A stretch of 35,631 bases of DNA from an uncultured Cycloclasticus sp. GTDB taxonomy: Bacteria > Pseudomonadota > Gammaproteobacteria > Methylococcales > Cycloclasticaceae. Location: the NCBI GenBank assembly GCA_913057515.1, contig CAJXOJ010000019.1, forward strand, positions 1-35,631, written 5' to 3'. Position 1 is the first letter of the stretch; each line of letters opens with the position of its first letter. The notes beneath the pieces were generated by a model that saw nothing but the letters and a program-made list of their open reading frames with translations, made no database searches and was not told where the DNA came from. A program made the position numbers and the translations under genes. Of this stretch, positions 2,820 to 11,755 are shown in pieces.

Positions 2820-5102
2820 ATGAATGTATCGAGATTATTAATATGTGTTTTTTTGTTAGCTTTATGTGCATTCAATTCTACTTACGTTGCTGCGAATGAA
2901 GCGCTAAATATCGAAGCCACTGAATTGAGGCTTATAGAAAAACAAAAGACGATAGAGCTTATTTCTCAGCAGCTAGCGGAAAACACGTTTGATAAAACGC
3001 GCCTATTAGAGTTACGTCAAACGCTAAGCACAATACGCACTGAGCTACAAAATACGGTTGATGTGATTCAGCCTGTTAATGACAGTGTTCAAGCCGACCT
3101 AGCGGACCTTGGGGTGGCTCCAGAAGGAGAAAATGCGCCACCAGAGCCAGATAACATTCAGGAATTGCGTGCTGAGTTAACGAAGGAGTCGCTCGTTATT
3201 GAGGGCTTATTGACGCAAGCTGAAGCGCTAACATCTAAATCATCGCGGCTGTTAGAAAAAATCACTTCTTTAAGGCGTACACTATTTTTAGAGGGGCTTC
3301 TTGAGCGGCAAGTGACAGTATTTAATGCTGATCTATGGAAAGCCGCAGAAGAGCCTTTTTATACTCAATTTTCAAATTATAAACACATTTTTGAAGATAA
3401 AGATCTCCGAGAGCTGATTGTCATATCGAGTTTTCTTTTTTTAGCTGTTTTTTTTATCACCACTTTTTTATCTAAAAAAAGGTTAGCGATAAAATTGCAA
3501 AATGATGGGTGGGAGCATAGTTTCTCATTGGTTTCAGCGTCTTTATTTTTCCCGTTTTTGGCGATAGGGCTTGGACTTCTTATCATTTATCAAATATTTA
3601 TTGCCCAAGACATTGTCACTGAGATCAATCATTTGTTAATACAAAAGGTGCTGATGCTCACCGGGTTCTTGCTCATTGTTTATTTGATGACTGGGCGGTT
3701 TTTGAAAGCGAGACTCATTCGTTCACATTTGTGTTATTTAATCTGTGTGGTGGCGTTGTTATTTTCAGTAGACGCGTTGCTGCTTGAAAGTGGAGAAATT
3801 CTAGGGGTGCCGATAGAACTAGCGGTTTCCCAAAGCTATATAGTGACGTCAATCTTTGCAATGATATTAGGGCTGTTTTCTTTTTTTGTGTTGATAGGGC
3901 CAAAAGATGCTGGAGAATACTTCTTTCCACGCAAGACATTTATCCTTCTTCTAATGATTAGCATTTTTATTATTATATTTAATGTATTTGGCTATGCAGC
4001 CCTCAGTCGTTATTTGTTTGAAGGGTTTGTCCTCATCTTATCTTTAGTCACCTCAATCCTTGTTATAAGAGCGATTATTCGTCCTTATTTTTATCAAATA
4101 GATGAGTGGTTAGCGCAAAATAAAACGGATAAAAAGTCAGAGCAACTTGTTTTATTTTGGTTATCCCTATCATTAGATCTCATTTTATTCTTTATATGTT
4201 TACCCTTTGTAGCCGGTATTTTTGGCACTGAATGGCAATATATTCAGGATACGATGAAGCAGGCGTTTTTTGGCTTTGAGGTTGGCAATATGACAATCTC
4301 AATTGCCAATATTGGTGTTGGCTTGCTTGTCTTTTTAACTTTGCTGTTCATCACGCGTGTTATTCAGCGTATTTTGGATCAAAAAATTCTGCCTAAAACG
4401 AACATGGATACGAGTGTTCGTCAGTCAATAACACAGGTGCTGGGTTATGTTGGGCTGATTATTGCCCTGATGGCCAGTATATCAGCGGTTGGTTTTGATC
4501 TAACCAATTTGGCATTGATAGCGGGTGCCTTGTCTGTTGGTATTGGTTTTGGCTTGCAAAGTATAGTGAGTAACTTTGTTTCGGGTCTTATTTTGTTGTT
4601 TGAACGGCCCATAAAAGTAGGTGATTGGTTGATCACCAATTCAGGTGAGGGGATTGTAAAGAAAATCAGCGTGCGGGCTACTGTGGTTGAAACGTTTGAC
4701 CGGACATCGATTATTGTGCCAAATGCTGAACTCATTTCATCATCAGTTAAAAACTGGACACATTCCGATAAAATTGGCCGTGTCATTATTAATGTTGGAG
4801 TGTCCTACTCTTCGGACCCTAAACAAGTGAGAGATATATTAATGGACGTGATTAATCAAGATGTAGACATCATAAAAAATCCTAAGCCTGTGGTTTATTT
4901 TAAGGATTTTGCAGACAGTGCTTTGATATTTGATGTTCGCTTTTTTATTTGGAATATTCAGGATATGTATTCAATTTCAAGTAAGGTGCGTTTCTCAATT
5001 TGGGATGCATTTAAGGACGCGGAAATTGAGATTTCTTTCCCCCAAAGAGATTTACACATTCGCACGGCACCGGGATTAGAGGGGATATTAGATGGAAAAT
5101 AG
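2820..5102 (+). CDS. Large MscS-family mechanosensitive channel with periplasmic coiled-coil N-terminus (DUF3772-like)
   Basis: The protein has 760 residues. A signal peptide covers about residues 1-25, ending AANEA. Residues ~28-165 are Leu/Glu/Lys-rich and helical, resembling the periplasmic DUF3772 region of large MscS relatives. Many membrane segments run from about residue 195 to 550. The pore helix and beta domain are near residues 561-610, with a Gly/Ala-rich ALSVGIGFGLQSIVSN run followed by FERPIKVGDW. The C-terminus ends in an MscS alpha/beta domain with the IIVPNAELIS motif. This is the architecture of MscK/YbiO-type channels, which protect cells from hypoosmotic shock at the inner membrane. 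Its last 11 bases overlap the start of the zntB-like gene, so the two are probably translationally coupled. Confidence 0.88.
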   Translation: MNVSRLLICVFLLALCAFNSTYVAANEALNIEATELRLIEKQKTIELISQQLAENTFDKTRLLELRQTLSTIRTELQNTVDVIQPVNDSVQADLADLGVAPEGENAPPEPDNIQELRAELTKESLVIEGLLTQAEALTSKSSRLLEKITSLRRTLFLEGLLERQVTVFNADLWKAAEEPFYTQFSNYKHIFEDKDLRELIVISSFLFLAVFFITTFLSKKRLAIKLQNDGWEHSFSLVSASLFFPFLAIGLGLLIIYQIFIAQDIVTEINHLLIQKVLMLTGFLLIVYLMTGRFLKARLIRSHLCYLICVVALLFSVDALLLESGEILGVPIELAVSQSYIVTSIFAMILGLFSFFVLIGPKDAGEYFFPRKTFILLLMISIFIIIFNVFGYAALSRYLFEGFVLILSLVTSILVIRAIIRPYFYQIDEWLAQNKTDKKSEQLVLFWLSLSLDLILFFICLPFVAGIFGTEWQYIQDTMKQAFFGFEVGNMTISIANIGVGLLVFLTLLFITRVIQRILDQKILPKTNMDTSVRQSITQVLGYVGLIIALMASISAVGFDLTNLALIAGALSVGIGFGLQSIVSNFVSGLILLFERPIKVGDWLITNSGEGIVKKISVRATVVETFDRTSIIVPNAELISSSVKNWTHSDKIGRVIINVGVSYSSDPKQVRDILMDVINQDVDIIKNPKPVVYFKDFADSALIFDVRFFIWNIQDMYSISSKVRFSIWDAFKDAEIEISFPQRDLHIRTAPGLEGILDGK

Positions 5103-6066
5103 TCATATTCTTTACGCTTGTAAATTGAATGGTGATGGCTCTAGCGCCTTGCTCGAAGAGGCCCAGATACAACAAGCGATTAGTCATGAATCGAAAGTTT
5201 GGATTCATTTAGAGGCAGAGCACCCAGAAAGTCGCCGATTGCTTGAAAGAGACTTTCCTTACTTAGATAGCCTTGTGGTTGATGCTTTATGCGCCGATGA
5301 GACGAGACCCCGTATTCTTGAATTTGACTATGGTGCGCTACTGATTTTACGCGGGGTAAACTTAAACCCTGGGGCAGAGCCGAATGATATGGTCTCTATC
5401 CGCCTATGGGTTGATAAACATAATATTATCAGCTTACGACGTCGTAAATTAAAGGCCATTCTTGAGATCCAAGGAAGACTGGAAGTTGGGCGAGGACCTA
5501 AAAATAGTGGCGATTTTGTGACCACGCTAATAGCCAGTTTATTTGAGCGCATGGAACCTGTTTTTTCTGAAATAGATGAGAAGCTAGACGAGGTTGAAGA
5601 AAGTGTTATGGAAAACCCGGATACAAATGAGCGACAGGAAATCACCTCTATTCGTAAAGATGCCATCATGTTTAAGCGTTATATTGCTCCTCAAAGAGAT
5701 GTGATTTCAAGCCTTCGTGTCTCTGATCAGTCGTGGTTGGACCAAATGCATAAACGCCGTTTGCAAGAATCATTAGACCGTGTAATACGCTATGTGGAAG
5801 ATTTAGATACGATTCGTGAGAGGGCTCAAATAGTTAAAGATGAGCTGGTCACCGGCCTTTCTGATCGCCTAAATAAGAATATGTATATGCTCTCGGTAGT
5901 GGCTGCTATATTTTTGCCCCTAGGCTTCTTAACCGGGCTGTTAGGGATTAATGTTGGCGGTATACCTGGAGCAGACAATGAAGCTGCTTTTTGGATCTTT
6001 ATGGGAATATTGGCGCTGATTATTTTAGCTCAGGTCTGGTTTTTTAAAAAACTAAAATGGTTTTAG
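5092..6066 (+). CDS. zntB: CorA/ZntB-family divalent metal transporter
   Basis: The protein has 324 residues. It shows a large soluble N-terminal domain rich in charged helices (residues ~1-262) and two C-terminal membrane helices (~264-283 and ~299-318), the standard CorA layout. The signature after the first helix is GIN at residues 285-287, followed by VGGIPG, rather than the GMN of Mg2+-transporting CorA. GxN variants of this kind with a GGIPG sequence are characteristic of the ZntB branch, which moves Zn2+. The substrate is therefore inferred as zinc but is not certain. The ATG at 5092 lies inside the preceding channel gene (11-base overlap). A strong inverted-repeat region follows the stop, in the convergent interval before the rim locus. 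Confidence 0.85.
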   Translation: MENSHILYACKLNGDGSSALLEEAQIQQAISHESKVWIHLEAEHPESRRLLERDFPYLDSLVVDALCADETRPRILEFDYGALLILRGVNLNPGAEPNDMVSIRLWVDKHNIISLRRRKLKAILEIQGRLEVGRGPKNSGDFVTTLIASLFERMEPVFSEIDEKLDEVEESVMENPDTNERQEITSIRKDAIMFKRYIAPQRDVISSLRVSDQSWLDQMHKRRLQESLDRVIRYVEDLDTIRERAQIVKDELVTGLSDRLNKNMYMLSVVAAIFLPLGFLTGLLGINVGGIPGADNEAAFWIFMGILALIILAQVWFFKKLKWF

Positions 6067-6121
6067 GGTACATTTTTAATCCTCAATGGAGTGAGTCTGA
6101 AAGACAAGCTTTTAGCGGGTA

Positions 6122-6150
6122 GTTTGCTGGTTTTAATGGAACCAGCAAAC
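6122..6150. repeat. Perfect 11-bp inverted repeat (hairpin) in convergent intergenic region
   Basis: The arms at 6122-6132 and 6140-6150 are perfectly complementary (GTTTGCTGGTT / AACCAGCAAAC) with a 7-base loop. The hairpin lies 56 bases after the zntB-like stop, between convergent genes. There is no T-run after it on either strand, so it is not a classic intrinsic terminator. It could protect transcript 3' ends or act as a weak terminator. Confidence 0.7.
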
Positions 6151-6177
6151 CATAGGGGCGCTCTGTTGCGAGTATTG

Positions 6178-6201
6178 CTAAGCGCTGTTTAAAGCGCTTA
6201 G
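6178..6201. repeat. Second inverted repeat in the same intergenic region
   Basis: The arms CTAAGCGCT (6178-6186) and AGCGCTTAG (6193-6201) are perfectly complementary with a 6-base loop. The repeat sits 28 bases after the first hairpin and before the stop of the RimB-RimK fusion on the opposite strand. The inner AGCGCT is itself palindromic. No U-tract follows on either strand. A double hairpin between two converging operons suggests transcript-end formation for both directions. Confidence 0.65.
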
Positions 6202-6288
6202 GCATTTATAAGGACGGTCTCTACACAATGGATGCAGACTAGGCTAAACGAACAATATCAGCTCTTTTTGGTTTATAGCTACAAGTGC

Positions 6289-7698
6289 TTAAAGTGTTTC
6301 TGAAACGCTGGAGCTAACGGGTCTTTCCCACTTCAACCTCTTTTCAATAGAGGCAATAATCAGCCCCGCTATGTCCTTACCCGTTGCAGACTCAATACCT
6401 TCTAAACCCGGAGATGAATTAACTTCTAAAAGCAGAGGGCCTTTACTGGAACGTATAATATCAACGCCAGCAACCTTGAGGCCTAACACTTTTGCCGAAA
6501 GCGTCGCTAAGCGCCGTTCTTCGGGGGTTATTTTAACCACAGAGGCGCTGCCACCTTGATGAATGTTGGCTCTAAATTCACCAGGAGCAGCCGTTCGCTG
6601 AATTGAAGCGACCACTTTGCCATCAATGACAAAACAGCGTAAATCTTTCCCGTCTGCTTCTTTAATAAATTCTTGAACTAACAAGTTTGCATGCAGTGCT
6701 TTGAAGGCATTGATAACGCTTTCGGCGGCTTTTTTAGTTTCAGCCAATACAACACCCCGGCCTTGTGTGCCTTCTAGTAATTTCACAATTAAGGGCGCTC
6801 CACCAACCATTTCTATTAAGTCGCTGGTATCCATTGGCGAGTGTGCAAAACCTGTTGTGGGAATACCGATACCACTTTTTAACATCAGTTGGAGTGAAAA
6901 TAGTTTGTCTCGCGATTGGGTGATAGCAGAGGATGAATTAACCGTATAAATGCCCATACTTTCAAATTGGCGAGCCAAAGCACAACCATAAAAGGTCATA
7001 CTTGGTCGTATACGTGTGACAACGGCATCTAAATTATTTAAAATTTTGCCGCCTCGATAATGAACTTCCGGTGCTTGTTCATCGACTTTCATGTAACAGT
7101 ATTTAATGTTTAAAAACACCATTTCGTGACCACGTTCCTCGGCGGCTTCCATTAAGCGCATGTTGCTATAAAGGTCTGGGTTACTGGCAAGCAAGCCTAT
7201 TTTAAGCCCACTTTTGTTTTTTTGAGGTTGACCATACCATTCGTAAAGCTGTTCTTTTGACGGCTCGTTTAGGCATAAGCTTAGCTCAGGGTCTACTAAG
7301 ATTCGTCCTTTCATCGCTTCACGACCTAATAGCATGCGGTAGCCCATTGAATCACGGTTCGCTAAGGTGAGCTCTACTTCCCATGTTTCACCTTCAACCT
7401 TAATTAAGGTTGAAATAACGTAGCGCGTTTCAGATATTCCAGAGGAGCTTTTAACGGAACGTTTGTCAACCACAGGTCGCTCGCAGCGCAACACAGTACG
7501 GCGATCCTTTTGTAGTGGGTGGACTTCAAAACTGGCCCATAAAATACCGTCGCGTCTAAAGGTTTGTATGTTAAAGGCATGAATAGACGATGTTTTAGCA
7601 CCTGAATCTACGCGCGCTTTAATGGCAGGGATGCCTAGGGCAGGGAAAGAACACCATTCTTCACTGCCTACAATGATTTTATTATTGCTAGAAGTCAT
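6289..7698 (-). CDS. rimK: RimB-RimK fusion: retropepsin-like protease domain plus ribosomal S6-type glutamate ligase
   Basis: The protein has 469 residues in two parts. Residues ~7-145 match RimB (Pfam Zn_protease, 'ATP-dependent zinc protease'), whose fold belongs with aspartic proteases: the key [14 protein letters not shown] stretch places Asp31-Ser32-Gly33, and LLGREAM appears later. After a short linker (~146-164), residues ~165-460 are a RimK ATP-grasp ligase very close to the E. coli enzyme, with [21 protein letters not shown], the Gly-rich FRANIHQGG loop and the metal-binding [12 protein letters not shown]. RimK adds glutamates to the C-terminus of ribosomal protein S6; RimB is the associated partner in Pseudomonas. 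Here both are in one chain, so their activities should be stoichiometric and cytoplasmic. It is the last gene of a three-gene minus-strand cluster, 36 bases after the M14-family gene. Confidence 0.9.
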
Positions 7699-7734
7699 TT
7701 TATTAGTCCAATTAAGGGTAAGGGGGCTTTAAAT

Positions 7735-8796
7735 TTAGATGATCGGAAGGTCGTCAGGGGGCGCTTCATCGCTGGCAGGATCTAGATCAAGCTGAAAAGC
7801 CTCCAGGTTGTCGACAACATCCTTAGGTCGTGTAAAACGGGCAATATGAAATAACGCTTCACCTTCACTGACGAGGGGTAAATTAGTTCTGCCGATAATA
7901 ATGCCTGAAATGGGTGAGATAATGTCGGTTTCTTTGCCGTCCTCACCATAAGGTGTTGCGACAGCACCGAGCAAGTCGCCCTCAAAAACGTGCTTGCCCA
8001 TGGAAACGGTCATCCGAAAAATACCACTTTGAGGCGCGCGCACCCAAAGAGTAGAACGCGCAACAAAGGGTTCTGCGGCTTTCTTTTTGGTTTTACGTTT
8101 AGGGACCGTCAACATGTCGATTGATTGCATTACAGCAAGAATGCCTTTACCACCTGCACGAATCGAAAACTCATCAAAACGGAGCGCTTCCCCTGCTTCG
8201 TAAACGATGACCGGTAAGTTTTTTTCTGTGCTACAAGCATAACGTAAAGAGCCTTCTATCAGGCCAGAATTAACCACCACGGGCGCATTAAAGGCTAAGG
8301 CCATTTGTTCGGTCACCGGGTTACTTAAGTCGGCGCGTATTTGCGGCAAATTGTCCCTATGAATCGCAGCTGTATGTAAATCAATGCCATGTGTGCATTG
8401 TTGCACGACTTCGGTCATAAATAATTTAGCTAAGCGCGCAGCCAAAGAGCCCTTGACTGAGCCTGGAAAGCAGCGATTTAAGTCTCGGCGATCGGGCAAG
8501 TAGCGGCTTTGGTTGAGAAAACCATAAACATTAACAATAGGTACCGTAATTAAGGTGCCTTTCATTCTTGAGAGTGATTTGCTTTTTACCAGTCGACGAA
8601 TAATTTCAACGCCATTAATTTCATCACCGTGCACGGCTGCAGAAACAAAAAGTATTGGGCCTTGACGCTTCCCTCGGATGACTTGTACCGGCATTGATAA
8701 GGAAGAATGTGTGTATAAATCTGGCAGGGGAACATCAATGATGGTGCTCGTTCCTGGTAAGATTTCTTGACCTGCAAGTATAAAAGGTTCTGACAT
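7735..8796 (-). CDS. Succinylglutamate desuccinylase/aspartoacylase-family (M14-like) zinc hydrolase
   Basis: The protein has 353 residues. Zinc ligands expected for the AstE/AspA branch of M14 carboxypeptidases are present: His56 and Glu59 in the AVHGDE motif and His141 in DLHTA. Substrate-binding Arg/Asn residues lie in the DRRDLNRCFPG run (~102-112), and the likely catalytic acid is Glu200 in VIVYEAGE. The C-terminal ~70 residues look like the beta-barrel (barrel-sandwich) domain common in these proteins. Relatives cleave N-acyl-amino acids or C-terminal amide bonds. The position between two RimK ligase genes suggests a substrate with glutamate or a similar amino acid, perhaps removal or processing of a RimK product; this is inference. 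It is not part of an arginine-catabolic ast cluster. Confidence 0.85.
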   Translation of the reverse strand: MSEPFILAGQEILPGTSTIIDVPLPDLYTHSSLSMPVQVIRGKRQGPILFVSAAVHGDEINGVEIIRRLVKSKSLSRMKGTLITVPIVNVYGFLNQSRYLPDRRDLNRCFPGSVKGSLAARLAKLFMTEVVQQCTHGIDLHTAAIHRDNLPQIRADLSNPVTEQMALAFNAPVVVNSGLIEGSLRYACSTEKNLPVIVYEAGEALRFDEFSIRAGGKGILAVMQSIDMLTVPKRKTKKKAAEPFVARSTLWVRAPQSGIFRMTVSMGKHVFEGDLLGAVATPYGEDGKETDIISPISGIIIGRTNLPLVSEGEALFHIARFTRPKDVVDNLEAFQLDLDPASDEAPPDDLPII

Positions 8797-8832
8797 GTTA
8801 GTTATCCACTGGTATGTATCTTTAAAATAGCA

Positions 8833-8848
8833 AGCTGATCAGTCAGCT
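8833..8848 (-). repeat. Short intercistronic hairpin in the rim cluster
   Basis: AGCTGA at 8833-8838 and TCAGCT at 8843-8848 form a 6-bp stem with a 4-base loop, in the 130-base gap between the RimK-RCK_C gene and the M14-family gene. On the minus strand it is followed by TGCTATTTT. It could be a weak terminator or processing site lowering expression of the downstream genes. The evidence is modest. Confidence 0.35.
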
Positions 8849-8926
8849 ATAATTTCTTATTTAATCTTTCGCTACTCACCCCTTTAATTGCGTAGGTGCG
8901 TTTGGCTAAAGATCAAGCTGGTCTAC

Positions 8927-10144
8927 TTATTGATCTGGATCATCTTCATGAGGCTGATTTAATTCTTCTGACTGTAGGTCTTGAACTTTTGGCCTTCGGC
9001 GTGCCTTTGTTTTCTTTGGAATCATGCCGCGTAATGAGTCTAATTTTCCGAAGCATAATAACCTGTCATCAGCTTCTAGTTCGCGTGCAGCACGTGGGTT
9101 AGGGATGGCCTTCGCTCCTCGATATAAGGTGAGCACGTTGATGTCTTTTTCTTCATCCATCACTTCTTGAATGGTCTTCCCAAGAAACTCTGAGCCTTCA
9201 GGAATATATATCTCACTGACGCCGTAACCTTTACTTACCGTTAATCGTTGGCGTATATCAATTTCAGGAAAATCCACTTGAGCAGACACGTAGTCAATTA
9301 CCGCGCCGGCAATATCTAAACCGGTGGCGGTTTCAATGCCTTCAAGTCCCGGCGACGAATTGACCTCCATTATTTGAGGGCCATTTTTACCTTCCAGCAT
9401 ATCAACGCCGGCTACTTCTAAACCTAAAATCTGAGTGGCTCGTACAGCTGTTTCTCTATACTGTTCATCAAGCTCTACTGGTTCGGCAATACCGCCTCGG
9501 TGGACATTGCTGCGAAATTCTTGCCCTTGAGCGACGCGGCGCATTGCGGCAACAACACGGTCACCGACAACAAAAGCACGAATATCCTTTCCTTTGCTTT
9601 CTGCCACAAACTTTTGAATGAGTACATTTTGTTTTTGGCTTTGTAGTAGTTCGATAATCGACTCAGCTGCTTTCATTGACTCAGCTAAGAGTACACCAAT
9701 GCCTTGGGTGCCTTCAATTAACTTAATAACGACAGGGGCACCACCAACTCGTTCGATGGCGGGAATGACATCCTTTCTGTCTCGTACAAACGTAGTTCTA
9801 GGAATACCAATATGATGACGGCTTAAAATTTGCAAACTACGTAGTTTGTCTCGCGAGTTAGAAATGCCGTGTGCAGTATTGGCACAGAAAACGCCCATTT
9901 CCTGGAATTGTCGAACAACAGCCGTGCCATAGTAAGTAATTGATGCACCAATTCTTGGTAAAACAGCATCATAACTGCTTAAGACCTTTTGCCGATAATA
10001 GAGGTCAGGGCTACCTTGTTGTAAATCGATAGCAAACTTGAGCGTGTTCAAGACTTTTACAGTGTGCCCTCTTTGAAGCGCCGCTTCTTTTAAACGTCTT
10101 GTGCTGTAGGCATTTGGCCCACAAGATAAAATAGCAAGTTTCAT
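8927..10144 (-). CDS. RimK-family ATP-grasp glutamate ligase with C-terminal RCK_C (TrkA_C) domain
   Basis: The protein has 405 residues; E. coli RimK has about 300. Residues 1-290 are a complete RimK: a start like KLAILSCGP, SRDKLRS at 97-103, VIKLIEGTQGIGVLLAE near 139-155, FRSNVHRGG near 210-218, and the metal/ATP site [12 protein letters not shown] near 260-271. Residues ~305-377 are additional and match the TrkA_C/RCK_C ligand-binding domain: GVSEIYIPEGSEFLGKTI, then a hydrophobic strand, ADDRLLCFG, and a LDSLRGMI helix. The tail from 377 is basic then acidic. RCK_C domains sense small ligands in K+ channels and transporters, so this ligase may be allosterically controlled. A good ribosome-binding site (AAAGGTG, 5 bases) precedes the ATG. 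It is the first gene of the cluster, and the second RimK copy is the fusion downstream. Confidence 0.88.
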   Translation of the reverse strand: MKLAILSCGPNAYSTRRLKEAALQRGHTVKVLNTLKFAIDLQQGSPDLYYRQKVLSSYDAVLPRIGASITYYGTAVVRQFQEMGVFCANTAHGISNSRDKLRSLQILSRHHIGIPRTTFVRDRKDVIPAIERVGGAPVVIKLIEGTQGIGVLLAESMKAAESIIELLQSQKQNVLIQKFVAESKGKDIRAFVVGDRVVAAMRRVAQGQEFRSNVHRGGIAEPVELDEQYRETAVRATQILGLEVAGVDMLEGKNGPQIMEVNSSPGLEGIETATGLDIAGAVIDYVSAQVDFPEIDIRQRLTVSKGYGVSEIYIPEGSEFLGKTIQEVMDEEKDINVLTLYRGAKAIPNPRAARELEADDRLLCFGKLDSLRGMIPKKTKARRRPKVQDLQSEELNQPHEDDPDQ

Positions 10145-10459
10145 AAAAACACCTTTAACGCTAGCTTAAAGAAGTGGTGATTGTATGGGAGTAAAGTTGA
10201 TCCTACCAGATAAATTTTTTGTATTTCAGAGCAAGTAAAATAATTAAAATATATAGATTGATCAGTAACTTATATTAATTTTACTGTTATTAGACGGTGT
10301 TGTAGTAAAAATTTGGTGTCTTTAAATTTAGGCATTTTTCATTTAAAGCAAGTTAGCCTGTGTATTTTACGTTGGCGGTGGTTTGTCACAGAGCTGATTT
10401 CTTGTGCAGGTCTAGCTCATTGGCGTCGATGAGGATTGGATAGAGTTCGAGTTTACCGC
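10145..10459. other. 315-base stretch without a clear gene upstream of the rim cluster
   Basis: The part nearest the RimK-RCK_C gene (10200-10340) is AT-rich and should hold that operon's promoter, but no convincing -35/-10 pair was found. The part at 10380-10470 has a minus-strand frame, open for 27 codons but lacking a start, that reads like protein (ending at a TGA near 10387). It may be a remnant, or a frame-shifted continuation of the small ORF just upstream. Confidence 0.5.
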
Positions 10460-10690
10460 TTAGGTAGGCGCTTCAACTTTAGTATTTAAACGCGGCGTTC
10501 TTGGATGGCTATTAGCATGCCCCATTCTTAAGTTTTTAATGTGCCAATGGATATTTGTTTGAAACTCATGGCCATTATAAGTAGCTGCCCCAATTATTCT
10601 AAAAGGACACTTTTCAACGATGCGGTCAACCAAATCCATTGAATTGTAGCGAGGGTGTTTTCGTAAATCTTTAGTGATTTGATATGCCAT
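10460..10690 (-). CDS. Small hypothetical protein (76 aa)
   Basis: Not recognised. The 76-residue product is basic and His/Asn-rich, with no signal peptide, no membrane segment and a single Cys in the centre (EKCPF). A GGTGA lies 5 bases before the ATG, a plausible ribosome-binding site that supports translation. It lies alone on the minus strand between the hydratase-like gene and the rim locus. Just after its stop, the +1 frame continues with a protein-like segment of about 27 codons, so it may be the front part of a longer, broken ORF. No function is proposed. Confidence 0.5.
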   Translation of the reverse strand: MAYQITKDLRKHPRYNSMDLVDRIVEKCPFRIIGAATYNGHEFQTNIHWHIKNLRMGHANSHPRTPRLNTKVEAPT

Positions 10691-10906
10691 GCAATCACCA
10701 AGATTGGTCTATTGAAATATTTAAGGTGCTTCTAATCTTTATCGATAAAGGTAGCTCATTGAGAAGGGGGTTATTAGTCTAGAGAATCGTTATGAGCTAT
10801 TTTAAAAACAGTTATCTATAGGTCATTTAATTACTAGAGATGTCTAACTCGGTTAGAGTCGAGTCTAAATCTTCAGCAAAAGCATTGCTGTGGCTATCAT
10901 TTGAAG

Positions 10907-11755
10907 CTATTTAAATGTCACATTGACTGAGACGTGAGGTTGTGTTCCCAAGCCTGTGTAAATTGCGGTTAAACGGCCTTTTTTAATGGGGATAGGCGAA
11001 GTAAGGCTGCCGAGTGACAAATAGGAGCCTGGTTTTAAAGGGTAATTTAGGGCTAAGAGCTTATTTTTTAACCAGCGAATAACATTAACTGGGTTGCCCA
11101 TCAGTGAGGAGCAGGCACCGGTTTGCAAATGACTACGGTCTTCGTACACGATTCCTACCTGACAAAAATTAAGGGTATCTATTGCAGTCATTGGAATGGG
11201 GTCGCCCATGACTCCATACCGAGCGCCAGTATTAATAGCGGTGAGCATGTCAGCATTTAACGGGTTTTTGGTTGAAAAAAGGCGATCAGGCACTTCTATA
11301 AAAGGAATAACTTGGTCGATGGCAGCTAAAATTTCTTCATCAGTTTGCGCTTCGTTAATTGAGCTGTCTTTTATGCGGACCAAGAGGTCGGCCTCAGCAA
11401 ACGGGTGCGTAGCATCTGAGATGTTGATTGAGGCAGGGCTGTCGAGTAGCATTTTGTTTAGAAAAATACCTAATAAGGGCTCTTTGATGCCCATTTTTTC
11501 TTGAGTGCTAGGGTTCGTTATTGCGGCTTTGTAACCGGCAATGCCGCCCCAGTTTTCAGAGAGCGCATAAACAACGTGTTTTTGAATTTCTAACGCGGAC
11601 TGGACTGTTAGTCCAGGGATAGCGTCGGCTTCTGTTTTATCAATAAAGTTATGATAGATATCAAGAGAGGTCCTTGGCACGAAGTTTTCTTGACGCATAA
11701 AAAAGATGGTTACAAGAGCGGCCGCAAATATTAATATTGTGAATTTAAATTTCAT
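10907..11755 (-). CDS. Signal-anchored 2-keto-4-pentenoate hydratase/FAA-hydrolase-family-like protein
   Basis: The protein has 282 residues. Residues ~5-20 form a hydrophobic segment typical of a signal peptide or N-terminal anchor, which is unusual because MhpD-type hydratases are cytoplasmic. The body (~30-282) resembles 2-hydroxypenta-2,4-dienoate hydratase/FAH-fold proteins: GYKAAI near 74-79, a metal-site-like EADLLVRI at 121-128, IPFIEVPD with Glu154, and a beta-rich C-terminus. The usual metal site is Glu-x-Glu; here it is Glu121-Ala-Asp123, so metal binding may be kept with altered geometry. The gene starts 5 bases after apeB and is probably in the same operon. No neighbouring genes for aromatic ring cleavage are present, so the substrate is unknown. 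Confidence 0.7.
   Translation of the reverse strand: MKFKFTILIFAAALVTIFFMRQENFVPRTSLDIYHNFIDKTEADAIPGLTVQSALEIQKHVVYALSENWGGIAGYKAAITNPSTQEKMGIKEPLLGIFLNKMLLDSPASINISDATHPFAEADLLVRIKDSSINEAQTDEEILAAIDQVIPFIEVPDRLFSTKNPLNADMLTAINTGARYGVMGDPIPMTAIDTLNFCQVGIVYEDRSHLQTGACSSLMGNPVNVIRWLKNKLLALNYPLKPGSYLSLGSLTSPIPIKKGRLTAIYTGLGTQPHVSVNVTFK

Follow-up and report, generated by a model that had tools for sequence, protein, structure and literature searches.

Several described systems come close to the locus presented here. The RimABK system of Pseudomonas fluorescens combines the ligase RimK and the retropepsin RimB in one operon that writes and cuts poly-alpha-glutamate. Desulfotalea psychrophila carries both in a single protein, RimBK, with an N-terminal RimB and a C-terminal RimK (PMC11957791). 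Likewise, the rlo operon of Pseudomonas aeruginosa, rloABC, groups a retropepsin with an ATP-grasp enzyme and controls osmotic tolerance and biofilm formation; it is distinguished by the secretion of its retropepsin and by an inactive transglutaminase (PMC12239564). The stretch analysed in this study (the window) comprises 35,631 nucleotides from an uncultured Cycloclasticus sp. (CAJXOJ010000019.1, contig C19 of a 2.48-Mb assembly that is about 90% complete) and contains a three-gene rim locus on its minus strand. This locus differs from RimABK by the fusion of its RimB to a RimK, and it adds an M14-fold hydrolase and a second RimK bearing a TrkA_C domain, two components which also set it apart from the RimBK of D. 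psychrophila. Our main result is that the zinc hydrolase is a conserved third gene of rim operons. The locus is composed of the following features:

8927..10144, minus strand: RimK-TrkA_C, a RimK ligase with a C-terminal TrkA_C (RCK_C) domain, 405 amino acids (aa) (PF08443, PF18030, PF02080; open reading frame (ORF) call)
9032..9217, minus strand: TrkA_C / RCK_C domain, residues 310-371 of RimK-TrkA_C (PF02080; model of residues 295-385 resembling the RCK domains of MthK and KhtT)
7735..8796, minus strand: AstE/AspA-like (M14-fold) zinc hydrolase, RimK-linked, 353 aa (PF24827; AlphaFold2 model)
8335..8358, minus strand: hydrolase signature R147-x-N149-L-P-Q152-x-R154, directly past zinc ligand His141 (residue alignment)
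6289..7698, minus strand: RimBK (RimB-RimK fusion), 469 aa (ORF; PF08443, PF18030, PF05618; NCBIfam; clade of 6 fusions)
7279..7674, minus strand: RimB retropepsin-like domain, residues 9-140 of RimBK, catalytic Asp31 (PF05618 above cut-off; NF052261 below its cut-off)
6328..7206, minus strand: RimK domain of RimBK, with Ala7, Ser8 and Gln216 and with K100, K141, D248, E260 and N262 retained (NF007764 search; residue alignment)

An earlier note on this DNA, made from the sequence alone, had already recognized the three adjacent genes, the extra domain of the first RimK, the AstE/AspA-like character of the hydrolase with its ligands intact and the fusion of a retropepsin-like domain to a second RimK, and all of these were confirmed. 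The genes are transcribed in the order RimK-TrkA_C, hydrolase, RimBK, with intergenic spacing of 130 and then 36 bases. Since promoter and terminator scans of positions 6000-11000 stayed at shuffle level (9 against a mean of 10.0, and 5 against 5.0), the operon structure is deduced from this spacing. Three genomes (G000, G014 and G017), all under one genus code, displayed the exact order, so that its wide conservation was rejected; the conserved unit is a simpler trio, rimB-rimK-hydrolase. The same note was aware of no description of the locus as a whole. One exists for the RimB-RimK fusion, ruled out as a novelty by its publication as RimBK (PMC11957791). For the association of the hydrolase with RimK, no description was found in the open-access literature among the matches listed, an earlier mention in a 2009 survey of ATP-grasp amidoligase neighbourhoods being possible. 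By text search, desuccinylase, aspartoacylase and TrkA are absent from PMC11957791, desuccinylase, aspartoacylase, carboxypeptidase and M14 from PMC12239564, hydrolase terms from PMC10092738, and desuccinylase from PMC10308900. New here are the M14-fold hydrolase as a conserved third component of RimB-RimK systems and, in the window's genus, a second ligase bearing a sensor domain.

A sample of 274 gammaproteobacterial genomes was searched for the hydrolase with a profile of 19 relatives. At E <= 1e-60, 89 genomes matched, and score and gene context led to 84 of them being sorted as rim-type. These 84 include broken or truncated copies (G084, G087, G102, G129 and G065 among them) as well as G275 and G089, whose copies fall in a zinc-less clade (see below). 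The 88 rows obtained correspond to 85 distinct loci, three loci fetched twice being counted once. RimK was located on the same strand within 450 bp of the hydrolase in 75 of the 85 and at 3.3 and 5.1 kb in two others, while none was present in the flank read for the remaining eight; the median distance of the close pairs was 47 bp. RimB occurred on the same strand within 1.5 kb in 65 of the 85 loci. The note's view of the hydrolase as tied to RimK is further borne out by co-occurrence: with NF007764 at E <= 1e-70 as the threshold for presence, RimK was recorded in 82 of the 84 hydrolase genomes versus 37 of the 190 others (Fisher p 9e-38, a significance inflated by the kinship of the genomes). 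The two hydrolase genomes below this threshold are G275, of the zinc-less clade, and G102, with a fragmented locus. In the latter (L183, 4258-6652), RimB and the hydrolase are broken up and RimK gives no more than a partial, weak match; the three are found together, which gives the impression of a rim module decaying as a unit.

This linkage was also observed at other taxonomic scales. Within the window's genus code, the hydrolase was found at E 1e-100 or better in 7 of 18 genomes. Among the 61 nearest genomes, all 11 with a strong hydrolase match have an adjacent RimK, and 11 more carry a strong RimK (>180 bits) without a strong hydrolase. A phylum-level sample, gammaproteobacteria included, displayed hydrolase matches in 69 of 299 genomes; RimK was adjacent at 18 of the 19 loci read from this sample, including all 15 that come from another class (one family code). 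The trio of RimB, RimK and hydrolase was moreover located on plasmids of Vibrio europaeus, Phaeobacter inhibens, Salinivibrio proteolyticus and the cyanobacterium Acaryochloris, and similarity searches bore this out for each of the four. In viral contigs, a pattern scan did not reveal any relative, and two haloarchaeal relatives (31.8% and 34.5% identity) had no annotated rimK adjoining.

At the protein level, the hydrolase belongs to AstE_AspA_cat (PF24827, 127.1 bits for a Pfam cut-off of 25) and, by curated NCBIfam cut-offs, to none of the named deacylases (76.6 bits against 402.7 for DoeB, 33.3 against 180 for AspA and 20.2 against 305.65 for AstE). Its AlphaFold2 model (mean pLDDT 88.7) had 3cdx and DoeB (6twm) as best matches among the 50 best PDB entries, with CphZ (8ein), AstE (1yw6), CCP5 (8v3p) and aspartoacylase lower among these 50. 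It shares with the DoeB, AstE and AspA deacylases the fold, the zinc ligands, the general acid and an N-R pair; besides the scores, additional arginines, an RxNxxQxR signature and the linkage to RimK distinguish it from them. The cyanophycin dipeptide hydrolase CphZ, whose dipeptide substrate comes from an ATP-grasp-synthesized polymer, likewise has this fold, but it displays 14-15% identity and acts in the cyanophycin pathway. The pairing of an ATP-grasp writer with an M14-fold remover also recalls the eukaryotic TTLL glutamylases and CCP deglutamylases, although the resemblance is distant and the match to CCP5 is at fold level only (13% identity).

Residues His56, Glu59, His141 and Glu200, i.e. 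the His-Glu-His zinc ligands and the general acid, align with those of E. coli AstE. They were intact in all 93 rows counted as rim-linked by a RimK at no more than 6 kb (some of these are near-identical) and in all 15 rows of a longer paralog described below. The N107-R108 pair, which we take to be the usual terminal-carboxylate binder of carboxypeptidases, is common to E. coli AstE. The signature R147, N149, Q152 and R154 is missing both from E. coli AstE and from the aligned stretches of 3cdx and DoeB; all four residues were retained in 90 of the 93 rim-linked rows and in 15 of the 15 long-paralog rows. Arginines 104, 147, 154, 185, 206 and 253 were typical of the family; in E. coli AstE, with which the alignment is distant, no counterparts were found. 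To judge from these residues, the arginine set would suit polyglutamate or a similar polyanion as substrate.

One clade of hydrolase relatives (L177, L178, L125, L124, L123, L112 and L115) displayed no RimK or Rlo gene in the flank read. His141 is lost in 7/7 of its members, His56 in 4/7 and the arginine signature in 7/7, none retaining all four signature residues, and these proteins are apparent pseudoenzymes.

The longer paralog mentioned above (404-577 aa in 15 rows) is extended at its N-terminus, and the extension, from its sequence, appears to begin with a signal peptide. In 8 of the 19 weaker-match loci (L107-L125), it was found beside RloA, RloB and RloC, following RloC on the same strand in seven and being divergent in L120. 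At L110, the four genes are tightly arranged on one strand and their families were confirmed by Pfam, the NCBIfam cut-off being passed by RloC and missed by RloA and RloB. Locus L121 gave weak RloA and RloB matches only, and the other 10 loci had no Rlo gene within 6 kb, five of them belonging to the zinc-less clade. The occurrence of two paralogous hydrolases with two related ligase-retropepsin systems makes it hard to invoke an unrelated shared metabolite.

Taken as a whole, the locus is best explained, and in our opinion probably so, as an expanded rim module for both the synthesis and the removal of poly-alpha-L-glutamate. The RimK ligases would add glutamates to a C-terminus, that of ribosomal protein S6 and/or another acceptor, or build free chains, and the RimB domain would cut long glutamate chains. 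RimB was reported to leave 4-5 glutamates on RpsF (PMC7343187) and five C-terminal glutamates to suffice for its cleavage (PMC11957791), so that clearing the remainder, or recycling the released oligoglutamate, would call for an exo-acting enzyme. We infer that the hydrolase is this enzyme, a carboxypeptidase-like one that would remove the C-terminal glutamates RimB cannot and/or degrade released oligoglutamates to glutamate; the modification would thereby be fully reset and glutamate recovered. The TrkA_C domain may let one of the ligases respond to a small ligand or ion, in parallel to the role of RimA and cyclic-di-GMP in P. fluorescens (a scan of seven proteins, those of the locus and of its flanks, detected no phosphodiesterase family and hence no RimA, the search not extending beyond them in the window or genome). 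Two of the fold matches support a deglutamylase: the dipeptide that CphZ splits stems from an ATP-grasp-made polymer, and the CCP5 structure was solved with Glu-peptide analogues (8v3p).

Such a widespread M14-fold third rim gene would be a direct candidate for the removal of the 4-5 residual glutamates. If this is true, many bacteria can fully reverse the polyglutamylation of their ribosomes or of some other target, and in bacteria other than P. aeruginosa the rlo operon is matched by such a component as well. More tentatively, rim and rlo could be the cytoplasmic and cell-envelope versions of a complete reversible bacterial polyglutamate system following the logic of the tubulin code, with an ATP-grasp writer, a retropepsin cutter and an M14-fold exo-deglutamylase, each version having its own paralogous deglutamylase and the whole playing a role in salt or osmotic adaptation.

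This last aspect is based on the genes flanking the locus:

2820..5102, plus strand: MscK/MscS-type mechanosensitive channel, a family also near some other rim loci (Pfam/NCBIfam)
5092..6066, plus strand: CorA/ZntB-type cation transporter, a family also near some other rim loci (Pfam/NCBIfam)

Within 6 kb, CorA was found at 14 of 53 rim loci versus 0 of 40 control windows, MscS at 9 of 53 versus 1 of 40, and either of them at 16 of 53 versus 1 of 40 (p 7e-4); the two families were picked after their recurrence had been noticed, and the control positions, two in each of 20 genomes, were chosen by the authors. Excluded before counting were nine loci from Methylophaga or close relatives, two loci almost identical to the window and all loci below 7 kb. 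Three rim loci had supplied the CorA and MscS query proteins; with the query-supplying loci excluded, the figures became 12 of 51 versus 0 of 40 for CorA (p 9e-4) and 13 of 50 versus 1 of 40 for either (p 0.0025). Neither family was found at the 19 loci L107-L125. The V. europaeus cluster comprises, in this order, a diguanylate cyclase, rimK, the hydrolase, rimB, a magnesium transporter, CorA, MscS and a universal stress protein. We take the identifier K05844 to stand for rimK. In brackish genomes, K05844 was reported to be commoner (PMC10219603), and rimK of Photobacterium damselae was among the genes most induced at low salt, with a value of 52.24 (PMC10308900). The CorA and MscS neighbours and these published observations together hint at a place for the rim module in salt or osmotic adaptation.

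Several observations weigh against the expanded-module reading. RimK does not need the hydrolase, since 37 of the 119 RimK genomes of the sample lack it, no hydrolase gene adjoins rimK in E. coli, and the rim operon of Pseudomonas is described with only rimB, plus rimA in some species (PMC10092738). The closest characterised relative of the hydrolase, in sequence and in structure, is DoeB, a small-molecule deacetylase. The arginine signature tracks linkage only loosely, because all seven unlinked rows outside the zinc-less clade, whose flanks as read show neither RimK nor Rlo, retain it in full (one of them, L031, is close to a contig end, and L180 and L171 are second copies). The enrichment of MscS taken alone was not significant once query-supplying loci were excluded (7 of 51 versus 1 of 40, p 0.07). 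Finally, S6 C-termini displayed no preference for glutamate in hydrolase genomes: a terminal Glu was present in 13 of 30 genomes with RimK and hydrolase, in 8 of 14 with RimK only and in 4 of 15 without RimK (genomes hand-picked from lists, a fifteenth RimK-only genome giving no S6 match). S6 of the window's genome ends in ...KATEE and would be compatible with glutamylation by RimK, and that of the sister genome G014, which carries the full trio, ends in ...ATDA. With no signal among the groups compared, the S6 C-terminus was rejected as an indicator of the target. These C-termini are compatible with S6 as the sole target and equally with a target other than S6, which the earlier note considered.

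The two ligases of the locus differ from one another. Both passed the cut-off of the S6-ligase model NF007764 (331 bits), RimBK with 390.3 and RimK-TrkA_C with 336.9 bits, and RimBK is the closer to E. coli RimK (350.9 versus 294.1 bits against 4iwx), as the earlier note had suggested. The RimB domain of RimBK scored 115.1 bits with PF05618 (cut-off 27) and displays the Asp31-Ser-Gly motif, but it missed the equivalog cut-off of NF052261 (130.4 against 200 bits) and is thus RimB-like, outside the curated equivalog. The assignment of this single 469-aa ORF to the RimBK architecture is by domains and not by comparison with the Desulfotalea sequence. An additional rimK beside rimBK was reported at 0.9%, the base of this figure being ambiguous in its wording (PMC11957791). 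In a RimK tree from a quick search, with SH-aLRT support only, the RimBK fusions formed one clade (6 rows, 99*), as did the RimK-TrkA_C proteins (7 rows, 100*). A repeated origin of RimBK was rejected: 11 rows had been labelled as fusions by a script, and in five of them (L136, L135, L139, L095 and L138), by manual comparison of coordinates, the RimB match is in another frame. One RimBK (L258, G314:C5, 5600-6997) has no adjoining hydrolase, and its RimB part is 70% identical to that of the window.

Residues lining the poly-Glu binding site or shaping the cleft were taken from Pseudomonas RimK (PMC10092738). Ordinary RimK rows (n=64) largely kept them (Ser7 in 61, Arg8 in 60 and Arg216 in 61), as did all five mislabelled rows, whereas all six members of the RimBK clade carry Ala7 and Ser8 and five of them lost Arg216, which is Gln216 in the window's RimBK. 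Catalytic positions are also lost in two members of this clade (D187, E260 and N262 in L258; K100 and D248 in L075). RimK-TrkA_C proteins display Cys8 in 7/7, with the catalytic and most poly-Glu-binding positions intact, and K100, K141, R189, D248, E260 and N262 are retained in both RimK proteins of the window. This pattern suggests, without proving it, that RimK-TrkA_C writes better of the two and that RimBK does the cutting. A full division of labour, in which RimK-TrkA_C would be the main writer and RimBK mainly an eraser with its ligase domain as a docking module, is compatible with the other readings. It would agree with the residue losses of the clade and with the Desulfotalea RimBK, which is proteolytic and did not glutamylate RpsF of strain SBW25 (PMC11957791). 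Yet we regard it as rather doubtful, given the intact catalytic residues of the window's RimBK, the Cys at position 8 of RimK-TrkA_C itself and the fact that RimBK is the sole strong RimK match in G003, where it would be the writer, if there is any.

The TrkA_C domain itself, of a type familiar from K+ channels, scored 33.8 bits with PF02080 (cut-off 27), and the AlphaFold2 model of residues 295-385 (mean pLDDT only 69) resembles the RCK domains of MthK, which binds Ca2+, and KhtT, which binds c-di-AMP; this suggests that RimK-TrkA_C is controlled by an ion or nucleotide. At 70% identity or more, the TrkA_C end was found in 3 of the 274 class genomes, its own genome counted; further RimK-TrkA_C copies occur in the relatives L063, L028 and L073, and in L019. 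At L065 (11164-11844), about 0.4 kb separates a rimB-rimK-hydrolase cluster, encoded on the opposite strand, from an upstream membrane-protein ORF that is followed by a TrkA_C-like stretch 32% identical to the window's domain.

In a further alternative, the product is free poly-alpha-glutamate, which the module would both build and break down and which would serve as a charge, osmotic or glutamate store, in the manner of cyanophycin with its synthase, endo-cleaving enzyme and dipeptide hydrolase, S6 being at most a side substrate. RimB stimulates the synthesis of free poly-alpha-glutamate by RimK (PMC11957791), but RpsF is the described acceptor of RimK modification in P. fluorescens (PMC7343187). 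The presence of CphZ among the fold matches, the S6 without terminal Glu in 17 of the 30 hydrolase genomes, the CorA and MscS neighbours, the low-salt induction of rimK in Photobacterium and the frequency of K05844 in brackish genomes would all suit such a store. We nevertheless hold it unlikely as a separate account, and it overlaps with the expanded module, sharing its chemistry and differing in the target.

The mammalian RimK homologues that make N-acetylaspartylglutamate and the aspartoacylase that splits N-acetylaspartate offer a parallel which, like membership in the AstE/AspA/DoeB family, would favour an ordinary deacylase of free N-acyl amino acids that stands beside rimK through shared glutamate or osmolyte metabolism; this is improbable in view of scores far under the curated cut-offs, of paralogs accompanying two different ligase-retropepsin operons and of an arginine signature absent from E. 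coli AstE and from the aligned 3cdx and DoeB stretches.

Two minor observations concern the same genome. Positions 10907-11755 of the window encode a 282-aa relative of 2-oxo-3-hexenedioate decarboxylase / 2-oxopent-4-enoate hydratase, well under the respective cut-offs, with an apparent N-terminal signal or membrane segment that is unusual in this family. On contig C41 (L074, 5701-11043), tandem ATP-grasp ligases of 302 and 538 aa, the second with DUF1643, precede an 871-aa M14 carboxypeptidase, upstream of genes that, by their sequence, look like a polyphosphate kinase and an exopolyphosphatase. Ligase and M14 enzyme are here paired for a second time within the window's genome, and the ATP-grasp pair is also present in G014 and G017.

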